A DNA stretch of 64,000 nt from Firmicutes bacterium HGW-Firmicutes-11 (GTDB lineage: Bacteria > Bacillota > Clostridia > Peptostreptococcales > Anaerovoracaceae), in contig PHAE01000002.1 of the NCBI GenBank assembly GCA_002840285.1, forward strand, positions 92,304 to 156,303, given 5' to 3'. Below, piece by piece: positions 54,246 through 58,182 of this stretch. Position numbers and translations under genes: made by a program. The notes under the pieces are model-generated. The model made no database searches, was not told the DNA's origin, and was given only the letters and a program-made list of their open reading frames with translations. Position 1 is the stretch's first letter; each line of letters begins with the position of its first letter.

Positions 54246-55349
54246 CTAATTCCCTATGCATTGATCCTGGTGCTGATGCTCGTGACATACGGAACCTGTA
54301 GATTTTAATGCCCCCTGCAGATAGGCTGCCGCTACTGCTTTCGCTTCTCCGCTGGCGCCAACAACGACTTCGATGCCCTTTTCATTGAAAATCTCGATGG
54401 CTCCGCTACCCATGCCGCCAGAAATAATAACGTTTACACCCAGGTCATTCAAAAAATTCGGCAAAAATCCAGGTTTGTGTCCCGGGTTGGCGATGGACTC
54501 GCTTTTCACGATTTGATTGTTTTGGGTTTCAAATATATTGAAGTTCACGCAATGTCCAAAATGCTCTGTGACCATTTCATTTTCACTTGCAACGGCGATT
54601 TTTATCATTTCTTTTTCCTCCATTTGTGCGATTATTTCCACTACAGAATCAAGCTGTATTCCTTCATAGAGTTCTATTGTGCCCTTGTCACAGGCAGCTG
54701 AAATATTGGGGTCGATCGGTAGCTTGGCAAGAACTTTCAAGTTATGTGCTTCGGCAATTTCTTCAATATGGCTATCGCCAAATATCTTGTAGTCCTTGTC
54801 ATTGTCCGGACATTTGAAATAGGACATGTTTTCCACCACTCCTATGATGGGGATATTCATCCGTTCTGCCATCTTGACTGCCTTTGACACGATCATTGAT
54901 ACAAGTTCCTGAGGAGAAGTCACCACAATGATCCCGTCAACAGGAATGGATTGAAAGACAGTTAGGGGAACATCACCGGTACCTGGCGGCATATCAATGA
55001 ACATGAAATCCACTTCGCTCCAGATAACGTCTGTCCAGAACTGTTTCACTGTGTTGGAAATGATCGGTCCTCTCCAAACAACCGGTTCTGTATCATTTTC
55101 CAGAAGCAGATTGATCGACATGATATCGATTCCCATTCTGCTTCTGATAGGAAATATGCCGAATTCACTTCCGGTTGCTTTTCCTTTGATCCCGAAGGCT
55201 TTGGGAATGGAAGGGCCGGTGATATCAGCATCGAGAATGGCAGTACGATACCCCATTCTGTTCATTGCAACTGCAAGCATGGAAGTGATGACTGACTTTC
55301 CCACGCCCCCTTTGCCGCTGACAACACCTATGACTTTTTTGACTTTCAT
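54246..55349 (-). CDS. Mrp/NBP35 ATPase fused to a NifX-type domain
   Basis: A 367-aa protein. Residues 1-245 are an Mrp/NBP35-type P-loop ATPase (SGKGGVGKSVITSMLA, FMFIDMPPGTGDVPLT), a class that carries Fe-S clusters. The last 110 residues are a NifX/NifB (dinitrogenase iron-molybdenum cofactor) domain (KIAVASENEMVTEHFGHC, GVNVIISGGMGSGAIEIF). The C-terminus has CHEHQHQDQC, a likely metal ligand tail. The same Mrp-ORP fusion occurs in orange-protein clusters of strict anaerobes. Last gene of the cluster. Confidence 0.92.
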   Translation of the reverse strand: MKVKKVIGVVSGKGGVGKSVITSMLAVAMNRMGYRTAILDADITGPSIPKAFGIKGKATGSEFGIFPIRSRMGIDIMSINLLLENDTEPVVWRGPIISNTVKQFWTDVIWSEVDFMFIDMPPGTGDVPLTVFQSIPVDGIIVVTSPQELVSMIVSKAVKMAERMNIPIIGVVENMSYFKCPDNDKDYKIFGDSHIEEIAEAHNLKVLAKLPIDPNISAACDKGTIELYEGIQLDSVVEIIAQMEEKEMIKIAVASENEMVTEHFGHCVNFNIFETQNNQIVKSESIANPGHKPGFLPNFLNDLGVNVIISGGMGSGAIEIFNEKGIEVVVGASGEAKAVAAAYLQGALKSTGSVCHEHQHQDQCIGN

Positions 55350-55370: not shown

Positions 55371-56231
55371 TTATTGGTTGAACAGTCTCATCGTTTGATC
55401 AAATACATCCCTGACAGCTCGTCCTGCTGCGCATTCCATGTCAACAATGCTCTTCGCGCTGTTGATGGCTTTTACAGCATCTGAGTCATAAGGGATCGTT
55501 CCCGTAAAAGGCAACTTGAACGTTTGACAAAATTCTTTGATTTTTTCCGTATTTTCAAGGTTCGTATCATACTTGTTGATGCATACGGCAACTTTTACCT
55601 GGAACGTTTCAGCCGTCTTGATGATGCGTTCCATGTCACTGATTCCTGACAGGGAAGGTTCCGCAACGATCAGTACCATGTCCACACCACTCAGCGAGGC
55701 GATGACCGGGCAACCGATCCCCGGAGAACCATCGATGATTGCTGTTTCAGCATCTTGCGCTGCTGACTTCATTTGTTTTTTCACTTCGGTGACAAGCATT
55801 CCCGATGTACCGCTGCCCATTTTCAGTTGAGCGGTCGAAAATACCACATCTTCTTCATAAAGCATCAATTCTCCTGCAACCGCGGGTTTTAGCGAAATCG
55901 CGTCGGCAGGACAAATGGCCTCGCATACTCCACAGCCTTCGCAGGAATAGGGATCGACCCTGTATTCACCATCTACTGATATTGCCGCAAACCTGCAGTT
56001 TTCTCTACACTGATCGCATTGCGTACATAATGCAAGGTTGATTTCTGCCTTAGGCAATCCGTAATAGTCTGTTCTGGTAGGTTCTCTTGTGCGGCTCATA
56101 ATCAGATGCAGATTCGGAGCATCCACGTCACAGTCTGCATACGCTTTTGCATCGACCAGTTTGATAAATGCGCTGGCGATAGTTGTTTTCCCCGTGCCGC
56201 CTTTGCCACTAAGAATCAAGAGCTGTTTCAT
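55371..56231 (-). CDS. MinD-superfamily ATPase with inserted ferredoxin domain (copy 1)
   Basis: A 286-aa ATPase. The deviant Walker A is ILSGKGGTGKTTIAS. An inserted two-cluster ferredoxin follows (CTQCDQCRENCRF and CEGCGVCEAICP), then the MinD core (IDGSPGIGCPV). Such proteins accompany ORP/NifX proteins in anaerobes and may load or move metal clusters. It overlaps the second copy by 23 nt. Confidence 0.92.
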   Translation of the reverse strand: MKQLLILSGKGGTGKTTIASAFIKLVDAKAYADCDVDAPNLHLIMSRTREPTRTDYYGLPKAEINLALCTQCDQCRENCRFAAISVDGEYRVDPYSCEGCGVCEAICPADAISLKPAVAGELMLYEEDVVFSTAQLKMGSGTSGMLVTEVKKQMKSAAQDAETAIIDGSPGIGCPVIASLSGVDMVLIVAEPSLSGISDMERIIKTAETFQVKVAVCINKYDTNLENTEKIKEFCQTFKLPFTGTIPYDSDAVKAINSAKSIVDMECAAGRAVRDVFDQTMRLFNQ

Positions 56232-57075
56232 GCCGCATCTCCTTTCTTAACGTCTGAAGCAGAGAAGAAAAGAGATCGCGGTACGTTTCCTGTACTCTGA
56301 CTGCAATCAAAGCATTTGAATTAAGTGTACCAAGCTCAGAAGTGTAAGGAATCGTTGCAAGGATCTTGATTCCATTTTCGTTGCAGAATGTTTCCGAGGG
56401 ATTCTCTCCGGTGAGGCACTTATTAAGTACAACACCATGAGGTTTTTTGAACAATTGTATCAGTTCATAAACCATGCTGAGATTATGGGCACCAAACAGG
56501 CTCGGTTCTGCCACCATGATGCAGTAATCCGCATCTTTGATGCTTTCCATTACGATGCAGGCACTCCCCGGCGGGCAGTCGATGAACGTTAAGCTGTTAT
56601 CTTCTTTCATATCTTCCATATCATCCAGAAGCTTTTTTATGATAGGGATGCCGGAAGCTTCTCCGGGATTCAGAATCCCGGTAAGAACTTTTACATCTTC
56701 AGAAACACCCTTTTGCACAATTCCTATACTCTTGTTTTTTTCCGATAAAGCGTTCTCAGGGCACAGCAAAACACATCCGCCACAGGAGTGGCAGACCTCT
56801 TCAAATACATGCAGTTTGTTTGCGATATATGCCAACGCATTATATTTGCAAAAGTCTACACAAGTTCGACAGCCGGTGCATAGGTTTTCATCAACATATG
56901 GAATCTTGATCGATACTTCTTCCGATTCGATCATTTCGGGCTTAAAAAAAAGATGACCGTTCGGCTCTTCCACATCGCAGTCAATATAGACCGCCTTTTT
57001 TGCTGCTGCTGCCAGATTCACAGACACGAGTGTTTTACCTGTTCCACCCTTACCGCTCAGAACGGCGATCCGCAT
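56209..57075 (-). CDS. MinD-superfamily ATPase with inserted ferredoxin domain (copy 2)
   Basis: A 288-aa paralogue of the neighbouring gene: AVLSGKGGTGKTLVSVNLAA, ferredoxin pair CTGCRTCVDFCKY and CHSCGGCVLLCPE, and FIDCPPGSACIV. The track ORF is 60 codons too long; ATG 57075 has GGAGG and begins the P-loop domain. Paired MinD-ferredoxin ATPases probably form a heterodimer, as in known ORP clusters. Confidence 0.92.
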   Translation of the reverse strand: MRIAVLSGKGGTGKTLVSVNLAAAAKKAVYIDCDVEEPNGHLFFKPEMIESEEVSIKIPYVDENLCTGCRTCVDFCKYNALAYIANKLHVFEEVCHSCGGCVLLCPENALSEKNKSIGIVQKGVSEDVKVLTGILNPGEASGIPIIKKLLDDMEDMKEDNSLTFIDCPPGSACIVMESIKDADYCIMVAEPSLFGAHNLSMVYELIQLFKKPHGVVLNKCLTGENPSETFCNENGIKILATIPYTSELGTLNSNALIAVRVQETYRDLFSSLLQTLRKEMRHETALDS

Positions 57076-57076
57076 G

Positions 57077-57445
57077 CTATTTGCCTCCATGTCCATGGAA
57101 GCCGGCATGGATCTCATCCAGCAATGGTAACGTTCCTTCTTCGAAGGCAGCGATATTGTCTTGAACTGAGGCGCTGCTCGTTTTATATATTTTGACGTTT
57201 GCCGCATTGAGCACTTCCGCAGCATTTTCTCCGCATCGCGGTGTAAGTAAGGCATCGACCTGATTATCTACAACCATCTGTGCCGCTTTGATCCCTGCGC
57301 CGCCCTGGCTGGTTGCAGCGCTGTTTTCGATGAACACAACATCTTTTGTTTCAATGTCATAAAAAAGGAAATATGGGGCGCGTCCAAAGGATATACAAAC
57401 ATCGCCTTCCATTGTTTTGTCATCCATCGGAATTGCTATTTTCAT
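57077..57445 (-). CDS. NifX/ORP-like metal-cluster protein
   Basis: A 122-aa single-domain protein of the dinitrogenase iron-molybdenum cofactor (NifX/NifB C-terminal) family: [49 protein letters not shown]. Relatives called orange protein hold a Mo-Cu cluster. The C-terminal [10 protein letters not shown] may add ligands. Its stop and the MinD start are 1 nt apart, and its ATG overlaps the DUF134 stop. Confidence 0.9.
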
Positions 57446-57837
57446 AAGAGTTCCTCCTTATTATCGTATGACTCGTCTTCAGCAAAATTTCTTCCACATC
57501 TATGTCTTCGGCACATTCCGCAGCCATGCATCCGTTCGCTTTCGCTATAAAGCTTGTAGTCTCCTCCTTCGATTTTAAGGATGTTTCCATTGACCAAAGA
57601 TTCAGCGATCTTGCTTCTCGCATCCTTGTAAATGCTTTGAACGGTAGCGCGCGCCACCTGCATTTTTTCAGCAGATTCTTCCTGTGTCAAACCTTCAAGA
57701 TCGATCAGTCGGACGGCTTCATACTCTTCCACTGTCATATTGATCATTTCATTTTCCATCAATAAACCATCCAGTGGGCCGAACAGGTTGGTCTCAGGCA
57801 GGCTACATACTTTTCTCCATTTTCTTGGTCTTGGCAT
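57442..57837 (-). CDS. DUF134 helix-turn-helix protein, likely cluster regulator
   Basis: A 131-aa protein of DUF134 ([21 protein letters not shown] start). A sigma-70 region-4-like helix-turn-helix reads [35 protein letters not shown], and a Cys-rich tail [10 protein letters not shown] may bind metal. A DNA-binding regulator at the head of a metal-cofactor cluster is expected to sense metal or redox state, and the dyads in the cluster promoter are its best candidate target. Confidence 0.85.
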
Positions 57838-57902: not shown

Positions 57903-58109
57903 TTACATAGTATCGATTTGTTTGTTGATATCATCCAATCTTTTTTGAAGCAGTTCCTTTTCCTCTTTTAGTATATCCTTGTCCGTCACTGCGACGTTTC
58001 TTCCAAAAAAGTATCTTCCGAATCCTCTCCGACATCCATAGAACGCTCCGAATCCTCTTCCGCTCATTGGGCCAAAACCCAATGGCCCTGTACCATCTCT
58101 TCCCGGCAT
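57903..58109 (-). CDS. DUF5320 small Gly/Arg-rich protein
   Basis: A 68-aa protein beginning [21 protein letters not shown], the hallmark of DUF5320, followed by a predicted coiled coil ([18 protein letters not shown]). Found next to NifX/ORP genes in anaerobes; role unknown. Start 58109 has AGGGGGGG upstream; the track start lies in the promoter region. First gene of the cluster. Confidence 0.85.
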
Positions 58110-58132
58110 ATCATTCACCCCCCCTAGTTTGC

Positions 58133-58182
58133 GGCATATGTCATTTACAACTTCATTATACCTCGTATTTGGCATATGTCAA
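58133..58182 (-). promoter_or_regulatory. ORP-like cluster promoter flanked by two CATATG dyads
   Basis: TTGACA (58182-58177) and TATAAT (58160-58155) are 16 bp apart on the minus strand. TGACATATGCC occurs at 58181-58171, overlapping the -35 box, and again at 58143-58133 after the -10 box. Each is a near-palindrome GRCATATGYC. The layout suggests repressor binding at both sides of the promoter. Confidence 0.8.

Follow-up and report, generated by a model that had tools for sequence, protein, structure and literature searches.

Which protein, if any, recognises a pair of identical dyads that frames the promoter of a bacterial gene cluster? The question is raised by a locus of Firmicutes bacterium HGW-Firmicutes-11, where the window (the whole stretch of 64,000 nucleotides analysed here) contains an exact 11-bp repeat, GGCATATGTCA, at 58133-58143 and 58171-58181, separated by 38 bp from start to start. 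The 10-bp copies of GGCATATGTC within it lie at 58133-58142 and 58171-58180.

Paired dyads around a consensus promoter

Read on the minus strand, the region is TTGACATATGCCAA-atacgagg-TATAAT-gaagttgtaa-ATGACATATGCCGC. The upstream dyad, putative operator site 1 (TTGACATATGCCAA, 58169..58182, minus strand), supplies in its left half the -35 hexamer TTGACA (58177..58182, minus strand), which is invariant in relatives. The -10 hexamer TATAAT (58155..58160, minus strand) lies midway between the two dyads, a position also kept in relatives, and putative operator site 2 (ATGACATATGCCGC, 58131..58144, minus strand) covers approximately +4 to +17 of the inferred transcript. A promoter scan scored this sigma70-type TTGACA-16-TATAAT promoter at 12/12, the best in the region. 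A second site at 38-39 bp is likewise kept in relatives.

The original prediction, that an exact 11-bp repeat overlaps the -35 element and recurs 38 bp away past the TATAAT box, on both sides of a near-consensus promoter, is upheld by the sequence and the scan. So is its claim that such a pair is unlikely by chance: exact matches to GRCATATGYC number only 8 in the whole genome of 1.93 Mb, and 8 sites scattered at random would yield about 0.001 pairs within 40 bp. The unit GRCATATGYC itself required refinement, since the natural unit is a palindrome of 14-22 bp, TTATTGACATATGTCAATAA, an inverted repeat of the -35 hexamer. Single imperfect sites carry little weight, because the window contains 10 GRCATATGYC matches with no more than one mismatch against 5.5 +/- 2.2 by chance; what exceeds chance in the window is the close exact pair. 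The remaining exact places in the genome (L034-L038) lack the TTGAC arms, had no ORP-type gene seen adjoining them, and are probably chance occurrences.

The best palindrome matches of the genome, and its only sites within one mismatch, are site 1 and a site lying 20 bp before the one other DUF134 gene that the genome encodes. This second DUF134 promoter carries a single dyad, not a pair, and its gene (L033:2033-3705) is followed by a sodium/calcium exchanger gene, not by ORP genes.

The operon behind the promoter

The promoter precedes, on the minus strand, genes in the order DUF5320-DUF134-NifX-MinD-MinD-MrpORP. The first, for a DUF5320 protein (57903..58109; Pfam PF17253, E 1.8e-11), was mechanically called as an open reading frame at 57903-58175, the start of which falls inside the dyad; translation probably starts at the ATG at 58109, which follows a G-rich ribosome-binding site. 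It is followed by the proposed regulator, DUF134 (UPF0251; 57442..57837), which has a helix-turn-helix (HTH) like that of sigma region 4 (Sigma70_r4) and whose score against PF02001 (75.9 bits, E 3.8e-21) exceeds the curated cut-off of 27, placing it in the family. Next come a NifX-type (Nitro_FeMo-Co) protein (57077..57445; PF02579), two MinD-type ATPases with 4Fe-4S motifs (56209..57078 and 55371..56231; Pfam) and an MrpORP iron-sulfur carrier (54246..55349; NCBIfam NF041136, 454.3 bits against a cut-off of 450).

The carrier, with its Mrp/NBP35 and Di-Nase domains, matches what is expected of an ORP-type cluster, as do the two MinD-type proteins with two 4Fe-4S motifs (Orp3 and Orp4 type), and the one-domain NifX-type protein (Orp8 type), these types being used as previously defined (PMC6345978). 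By these criteria the operon is an ORP-type iron-sulfur assembly cluster.

The ORP (orange protein) operons of Desulfovibrio vulgaris Hildenborough, which share the MinD-type 4Fe-4S ATPases, the NifX-type protein and MrpORP, are under the control of sigma54, the enhancer-binding protein DVU2106 and IHF (PMC3897727). Their regulator, too, has sites that are palindromic, and it feeds back negatively on a sigma70 promoter of its own (PMC3897727). Here, in contrast, there is a sigma70-type promoter with DUF134, no sigma54 sites are present in that promoter, and no enhancer-binding protein is encoded among the open reading frames of the cluster, so that regulation of the sigma54 type is not supported. 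The arrangement found here is thus another way of controlling a cluster of this type, and the analysis below offers a proposal for how clostridial ORP-type iron-sulfur clusters are controlled where Desulfovibrio uses sigma54 and DVU2106.

Conservation upstream of DUF134 genes

DUF134 genes of relatives bear a dyad of consensus TTGACATATGTCAA, often paired. Comparison of the promoter in related genomes was positive, with paired dyads conserved ahead of the orthologous clusters, both across Bacillota and in one Synergistaceae genome. In a named set of 80 DUF134 loci, mostly from Clostridia with the addition of a Negativicutes MAG, a Synergistaceae MAG and Bacillus marasmi, the 10-mer TTGACATATG was found de novo upstream of 61; the maximum for any 10-mer in shuffled sequence was 9. 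Upstream of short-type DUF134 genes the extended consensus is gTTATTGACATATGTCAATAAc, in which two -35 hexamers stand face to face across TA. At a threshold of at least 11/14 matches within 700 bp upstream, the dyad was present at 151/179 short-type genes (reversed control, 6), and requiring 12/14 matches left 117 (reversed control, none); 28 of the 179 have no recognisable dyad in the stretch examined.

The spacing of the pairs peaks at 38-39 bp (68/123 loci), with the -10 box at the pair centre (offset -0.6 +/- 1.1 bp). The pair finder sought CATATG-like cores and so has a slight bias toward this spacing; a strict-pattern search without the bias gives the same spacings. The central four bases are ATAT in 35/38. 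One criterion for a proposed operator, a palindrome (TTGACATATGTCAA) upstream of the DUF134 operon that is kept in orthologous clusters, is met.

Two wider readings were rejected. An antisense promoter starting from the outer half of site 2 was considered: bottom-strand -10 matches of at least 5/6 occur in 62/123 loci against 27/123 when shuffled. This excess is no evidence, because the central TATAAT alone yields 4-5 matches on the other strand. Nor does one motif serve all DUF134 proteins, since many of the long type (approximately 140-170 aa, helix SRPTFQR or SRQTFQ) lack it.

Some long-type loci have the related TTGACATAWGTTCATAA plus TTATGAACA instead. Three with the helix SRPTFFR (L246, L253, L270) have TTGACATAWGTTCATAA upstream, followed in two of the three by TTATGAACA some 33 bp on; these probably represent the same architecture with shifted specificity.

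Distribution across genomes

We searched 399 genomes of the phylum, 266 of them DUF134-positive, for the strict pair pattern, TTGACATATG-N26-36-CATATGYC. It is present in 78 genomes, against none for the backward-read control, and all 78 are among the DUF134-positive genomes (compared by eye; Fisher 3e-16, ignoring kinship of the genomes). Not one of the 133 phylum genomes without DUF134 contains the strict pair. Of 89 distinct pair places, 56 precede a listed DUF134 gene by no more than 1.2 kb, and among 20 places not so linked that were read, 15 are at DUF5320, NifX, MinD or MrpORP genes (DUF5320 at L309 and L320 being recognised by eye); no related gene was found at the other five (L314, L316, L318, L323, L327). 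From these placements, the motif marks DUF134 together with ORP/NifX-type clusters, even where DUF134 lies elsewhere.

The search for GRCATATGYC pairs across genomes was therefore positive, the motif being tied to DUF134 genes and genomes, and the part of the original prediction that needed narrowing is its scope: the targets are not metal genes in general but DUF134 itself and ORP/NifX/DUF5320/MinD clusters.

One locus (L070:1195-2870) carries two back-to-back dyad pairs, each with the 38-bp spacing, in the region that separates a NifX-MinD operon from a divergent DUF5320 gene. There is no DUF134 gene within this 3-kb locus, which may, tentatively, be a divergent, trans-regulated version of the system.

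Searching 247 genomes of the order for the exact single palindrome TTGACATATGTCAA gave 20 sites, compared with 4 for the control. Seven of these directly precede a DUF134 gene, and one is at an ORP cluster. The niacin repressor NiaR enters as an alternative owner of the dyads, since in three genomes of one genus (L073, L074, L075, around position 1501) the strict TTGACATATGTCAA lies between the NiaR gene and a PTS_EIIC_2 gene, not beside DUF134. These sites, however, are single and confined to that genus, and the published type I (Bacillus/Clostridium) NiaR motif is TGT-N4-ACA whereas the dyad reads ACA-N2-TGT (PMC7713382). The dyads do not qualify as NiaR operators, and this explanation can be virtually dismissed.

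Covariation of protein residues and half-site bases

The recognition-helix residues of DUF134 were compared with the half-site bases at the 123 loci with a pair. Where residue 68 is Arg, the second base of the half-site is G (AGGGCA, TGAACA, AGGACA); where it is Gly, Ala or Ser, that base is T or C (ATGACA, GCGACA). In the left half of site 2 this G accompanies R68 in 32/41 cases and G/A/S68 in 1/73 (Fisher 5e-19), the corresponding figures for the right half of site 1 being 32/41 and 2/73 (Fisher 8e-18). Residue 64, Ser or Thr, goes with base 4 (GGC or GAC, respectively; 2e-7, 6e-7 and 3e-8). In an unbiased scan of all protein columns, for which 86 sequences of less than 80% identity were used, column 68 ranked top for base 2 in both inner half-sites and column 64 ranked top for base 4 in both halves of site 2.

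Kinship was addressed with a protein tree built without the recognition-helix columns. Parsimony requires at least 18 changes of residue 68 on this tree, and the predicted direction holds in 11 of 12 phylogenetically independent contrasts. The paralogues of the present genome also fit: one, T64/G68, goes with ATGACATATGTCAA, while the window protein has the rare residues A64 and S68 and goes with mixed GAC/GGC half-sites.

The left half of site 1, which is the -35 element, stays TTGACA throughout. This constancy arises partly by construction, as the finder demanded most of the hexamer, and TTGACA-16-TATAAT is also a promoter requirement, which gives it a second reason. R68 lineages (e.g. L102, L104, L156) often retain TTGAC in the outer half of site 2 as well, although both inner halves follow R68 (NGRRCA). 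A simple symmetric model does not account for this asymmetry.

The other criterion for a proposed operator, that its bases covary with the recognition-helix residues of DUF134, is thus met. The dyads are almost certainly the target of DUF134, because its recognition helix and the repeats have changed together in many anaerobic bacteria, and the same covariation speaks against any other regulator, HcpR/FNR and NiaR included. Direct binding by DUF134 to the two dyads is very likely, although it is inferred and no binding data exist. The suggestion of a dedicated regulator in the original prediction, with DUF134 (57442-57837) as first candidate, is strongly supported by linkage and covariation; what these show directly stops short of measured binding.

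Might the repeats be no more than a -35 element with a chance copy, and no regulator at all? TTGACA is the -35 consensus and would alone keep half of site 1. Against this, site 2 is conserved despite having no promoter role, the reversed pair pattern has no match over the 399 genomes, and half-sites outside the -35 element covary with DUF134. The possibility is all but ruled out.

A regulator of the CRP/FNR family such as HcpR is a more specific alternative. HcpR of delta-proteobacteria and cyanobacteria recognises wyTTGACnnnnGTCAArw (PMC1274295), with the same TTGAC-N4-GTCAA outline as the dyads, CRP/FNR-type proteins are encoded in this genome, and residue-base covariation was likewise found for HcpR by comparative genomics (PMC1274295). 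HcpR ignores the central bases, however, whereas ATAT is fixed here, so that the dyads do not meet the description of an HcpR/FNR operator; the clostridial HcpR2 motif, GTAACnnnnGTTAC, is different; HcpR belongs to another protein family with other target genes; the half-site bases follow DUF134 residues; and the strict pair is missing from those of the 399 phylum genomes that lack DUF134. We consider HcpR a very improbable owner of the dyads.

With DUF134 preferred as the protein that binds, the covariation makes predictions. If the two-residue code is true, S68R in the window protein would switch its preference between ATGACATATG and AGGGCATATG, and T64S in a G68 homologue would switch preference between GAC and GGC.

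The DUF134 protein

Both Pfam and NCBIfam match the HTH of DUF134 to sigma region 4. The AlphaFold2 model has a mean pLDDT of 75.5, with residues 31-80 averaging approximately 90 or more, and its best Foldseek matches are again sigma region 4, among them SigR and sigma E with -35 DNA, albeit weakly (E-values of at least 0.05). The HTH thus resembles sigma region 4 on a -35 element by sequence and predicted fold, and the half-sites equal TTGACA. Unlike a sigma factor, DUF134 is a stand-alone protein of 131 residues without region 2, and its operator would be an inverted repeat with 2 bp between hexamers.

Three cysteines, C11, C97 and C109, are near-invariant (180, 172 and 173 of 181, respectively), and the tail is cysteine-rich, although the window protein has Tyr at 97. 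Sensing of an iron-sulfur or metal site by DUF134 is plausible, though so far only a guess. In some relatives, exemplified by L077:1568-2299, DUF134 and a Nitro_FeMo-Co (NifX-type) domain are fused in one protein, a fusion from which the NifX domain might be a sensor or partner of the regulator. DUF134 occurs also in archaea, as seen in search controls.

A sequence search of the PDB found no DUF134 structure, and the literature searched, which excluded most subscription journals, contained no function, operator or structure for DUF134, only passing mentions of DUF134/UPF0251. Among these is a tabulation of the secondary mutations of adapted delta-rex Thermoanaerobacterium saccharolyticum strains (PMC5886521); it includes Tsac_2480, a UPF0251 protein, which is a possible phenotype lead for the family.

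A model for the regulation

Sequence, conservation, genomic linkage and residue-base covariation are shown directly. We consider it likely that the dyads are the paired operator of DUF134, through which it represses its own iron-sulfur operon; binding, dimer and repression are inferred here, and the signal is a guess. Since the hexamers are inverted with 2 bp (TA) between them, we infer that a DUF134 dimer would sit on each dyad (TTGACA-TA-TGTCAA), one subunit per TTGACA-like half-site, reading two half-sites as sigma region 4 reads one. Bound over the -35 element at site 1 and approximately +4 to +17 at site 2, the protein would shut out RNA polymerase. Repression is itself an inference, drawn from a full-consensus promoter with sites on its -35 element and just past the transcription start. 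It would last until a signal, perhaps the state of an iron-sulfur or metal site reported via the cysteine-rich tail or a NifX-like partner, releases it. In the absence of expression data, repression and signal are less certain than binding.

Alternatively, DUF134 might bind and activate the operon, or activate or repress it according to a cofactor. The sequence holds no measure of the sign of the effect, and DUF134 could touch RNA polymerase as sigma region 4 does. A full-consensus promoter should, however, need no activator, and sites over the -35 element and the start region are in positions typical for repression; we think activation unlikely.

On the preferred model of repression, what is new is a proposed function for a DUF, namely an autoregulating HTH factor with an unusual operator, again from sequence alone. 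DUF134 thereby gains a proposed operator and promoter architecture, together with a small regulon and a two-residue specificity code that can be tested, and, if the model is true, a sigma-4-like domain would serve as a repressor on inverted -35 hexamers. A bolder reading, which we hold to be slightly less likely than not, is that DUF134 forms a large family of stand-alone sigma-region-4-like proteins that would compete with sigma at its own recognition sequence. These would read inverted -35 hexamers and control iron-sulfur (ORP/NifX) assembly operons, with their specificity set by the two-residue code and an iron-sulfur or metal cluster signal received via the cysteine tail or a fused NifX domain.

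A similar operator is found in the gp33 repressor system of mycobacteriophage BPs, where CGACATATGTCG shares the 10-bp core GACATATGTC and has a related second site close by (PMC4557955). That protein, unlike DUF134, is a phage repressor with no known DUF134 link, its sites lie 5-8 bp apart, and the resemblance is most likely convergence.
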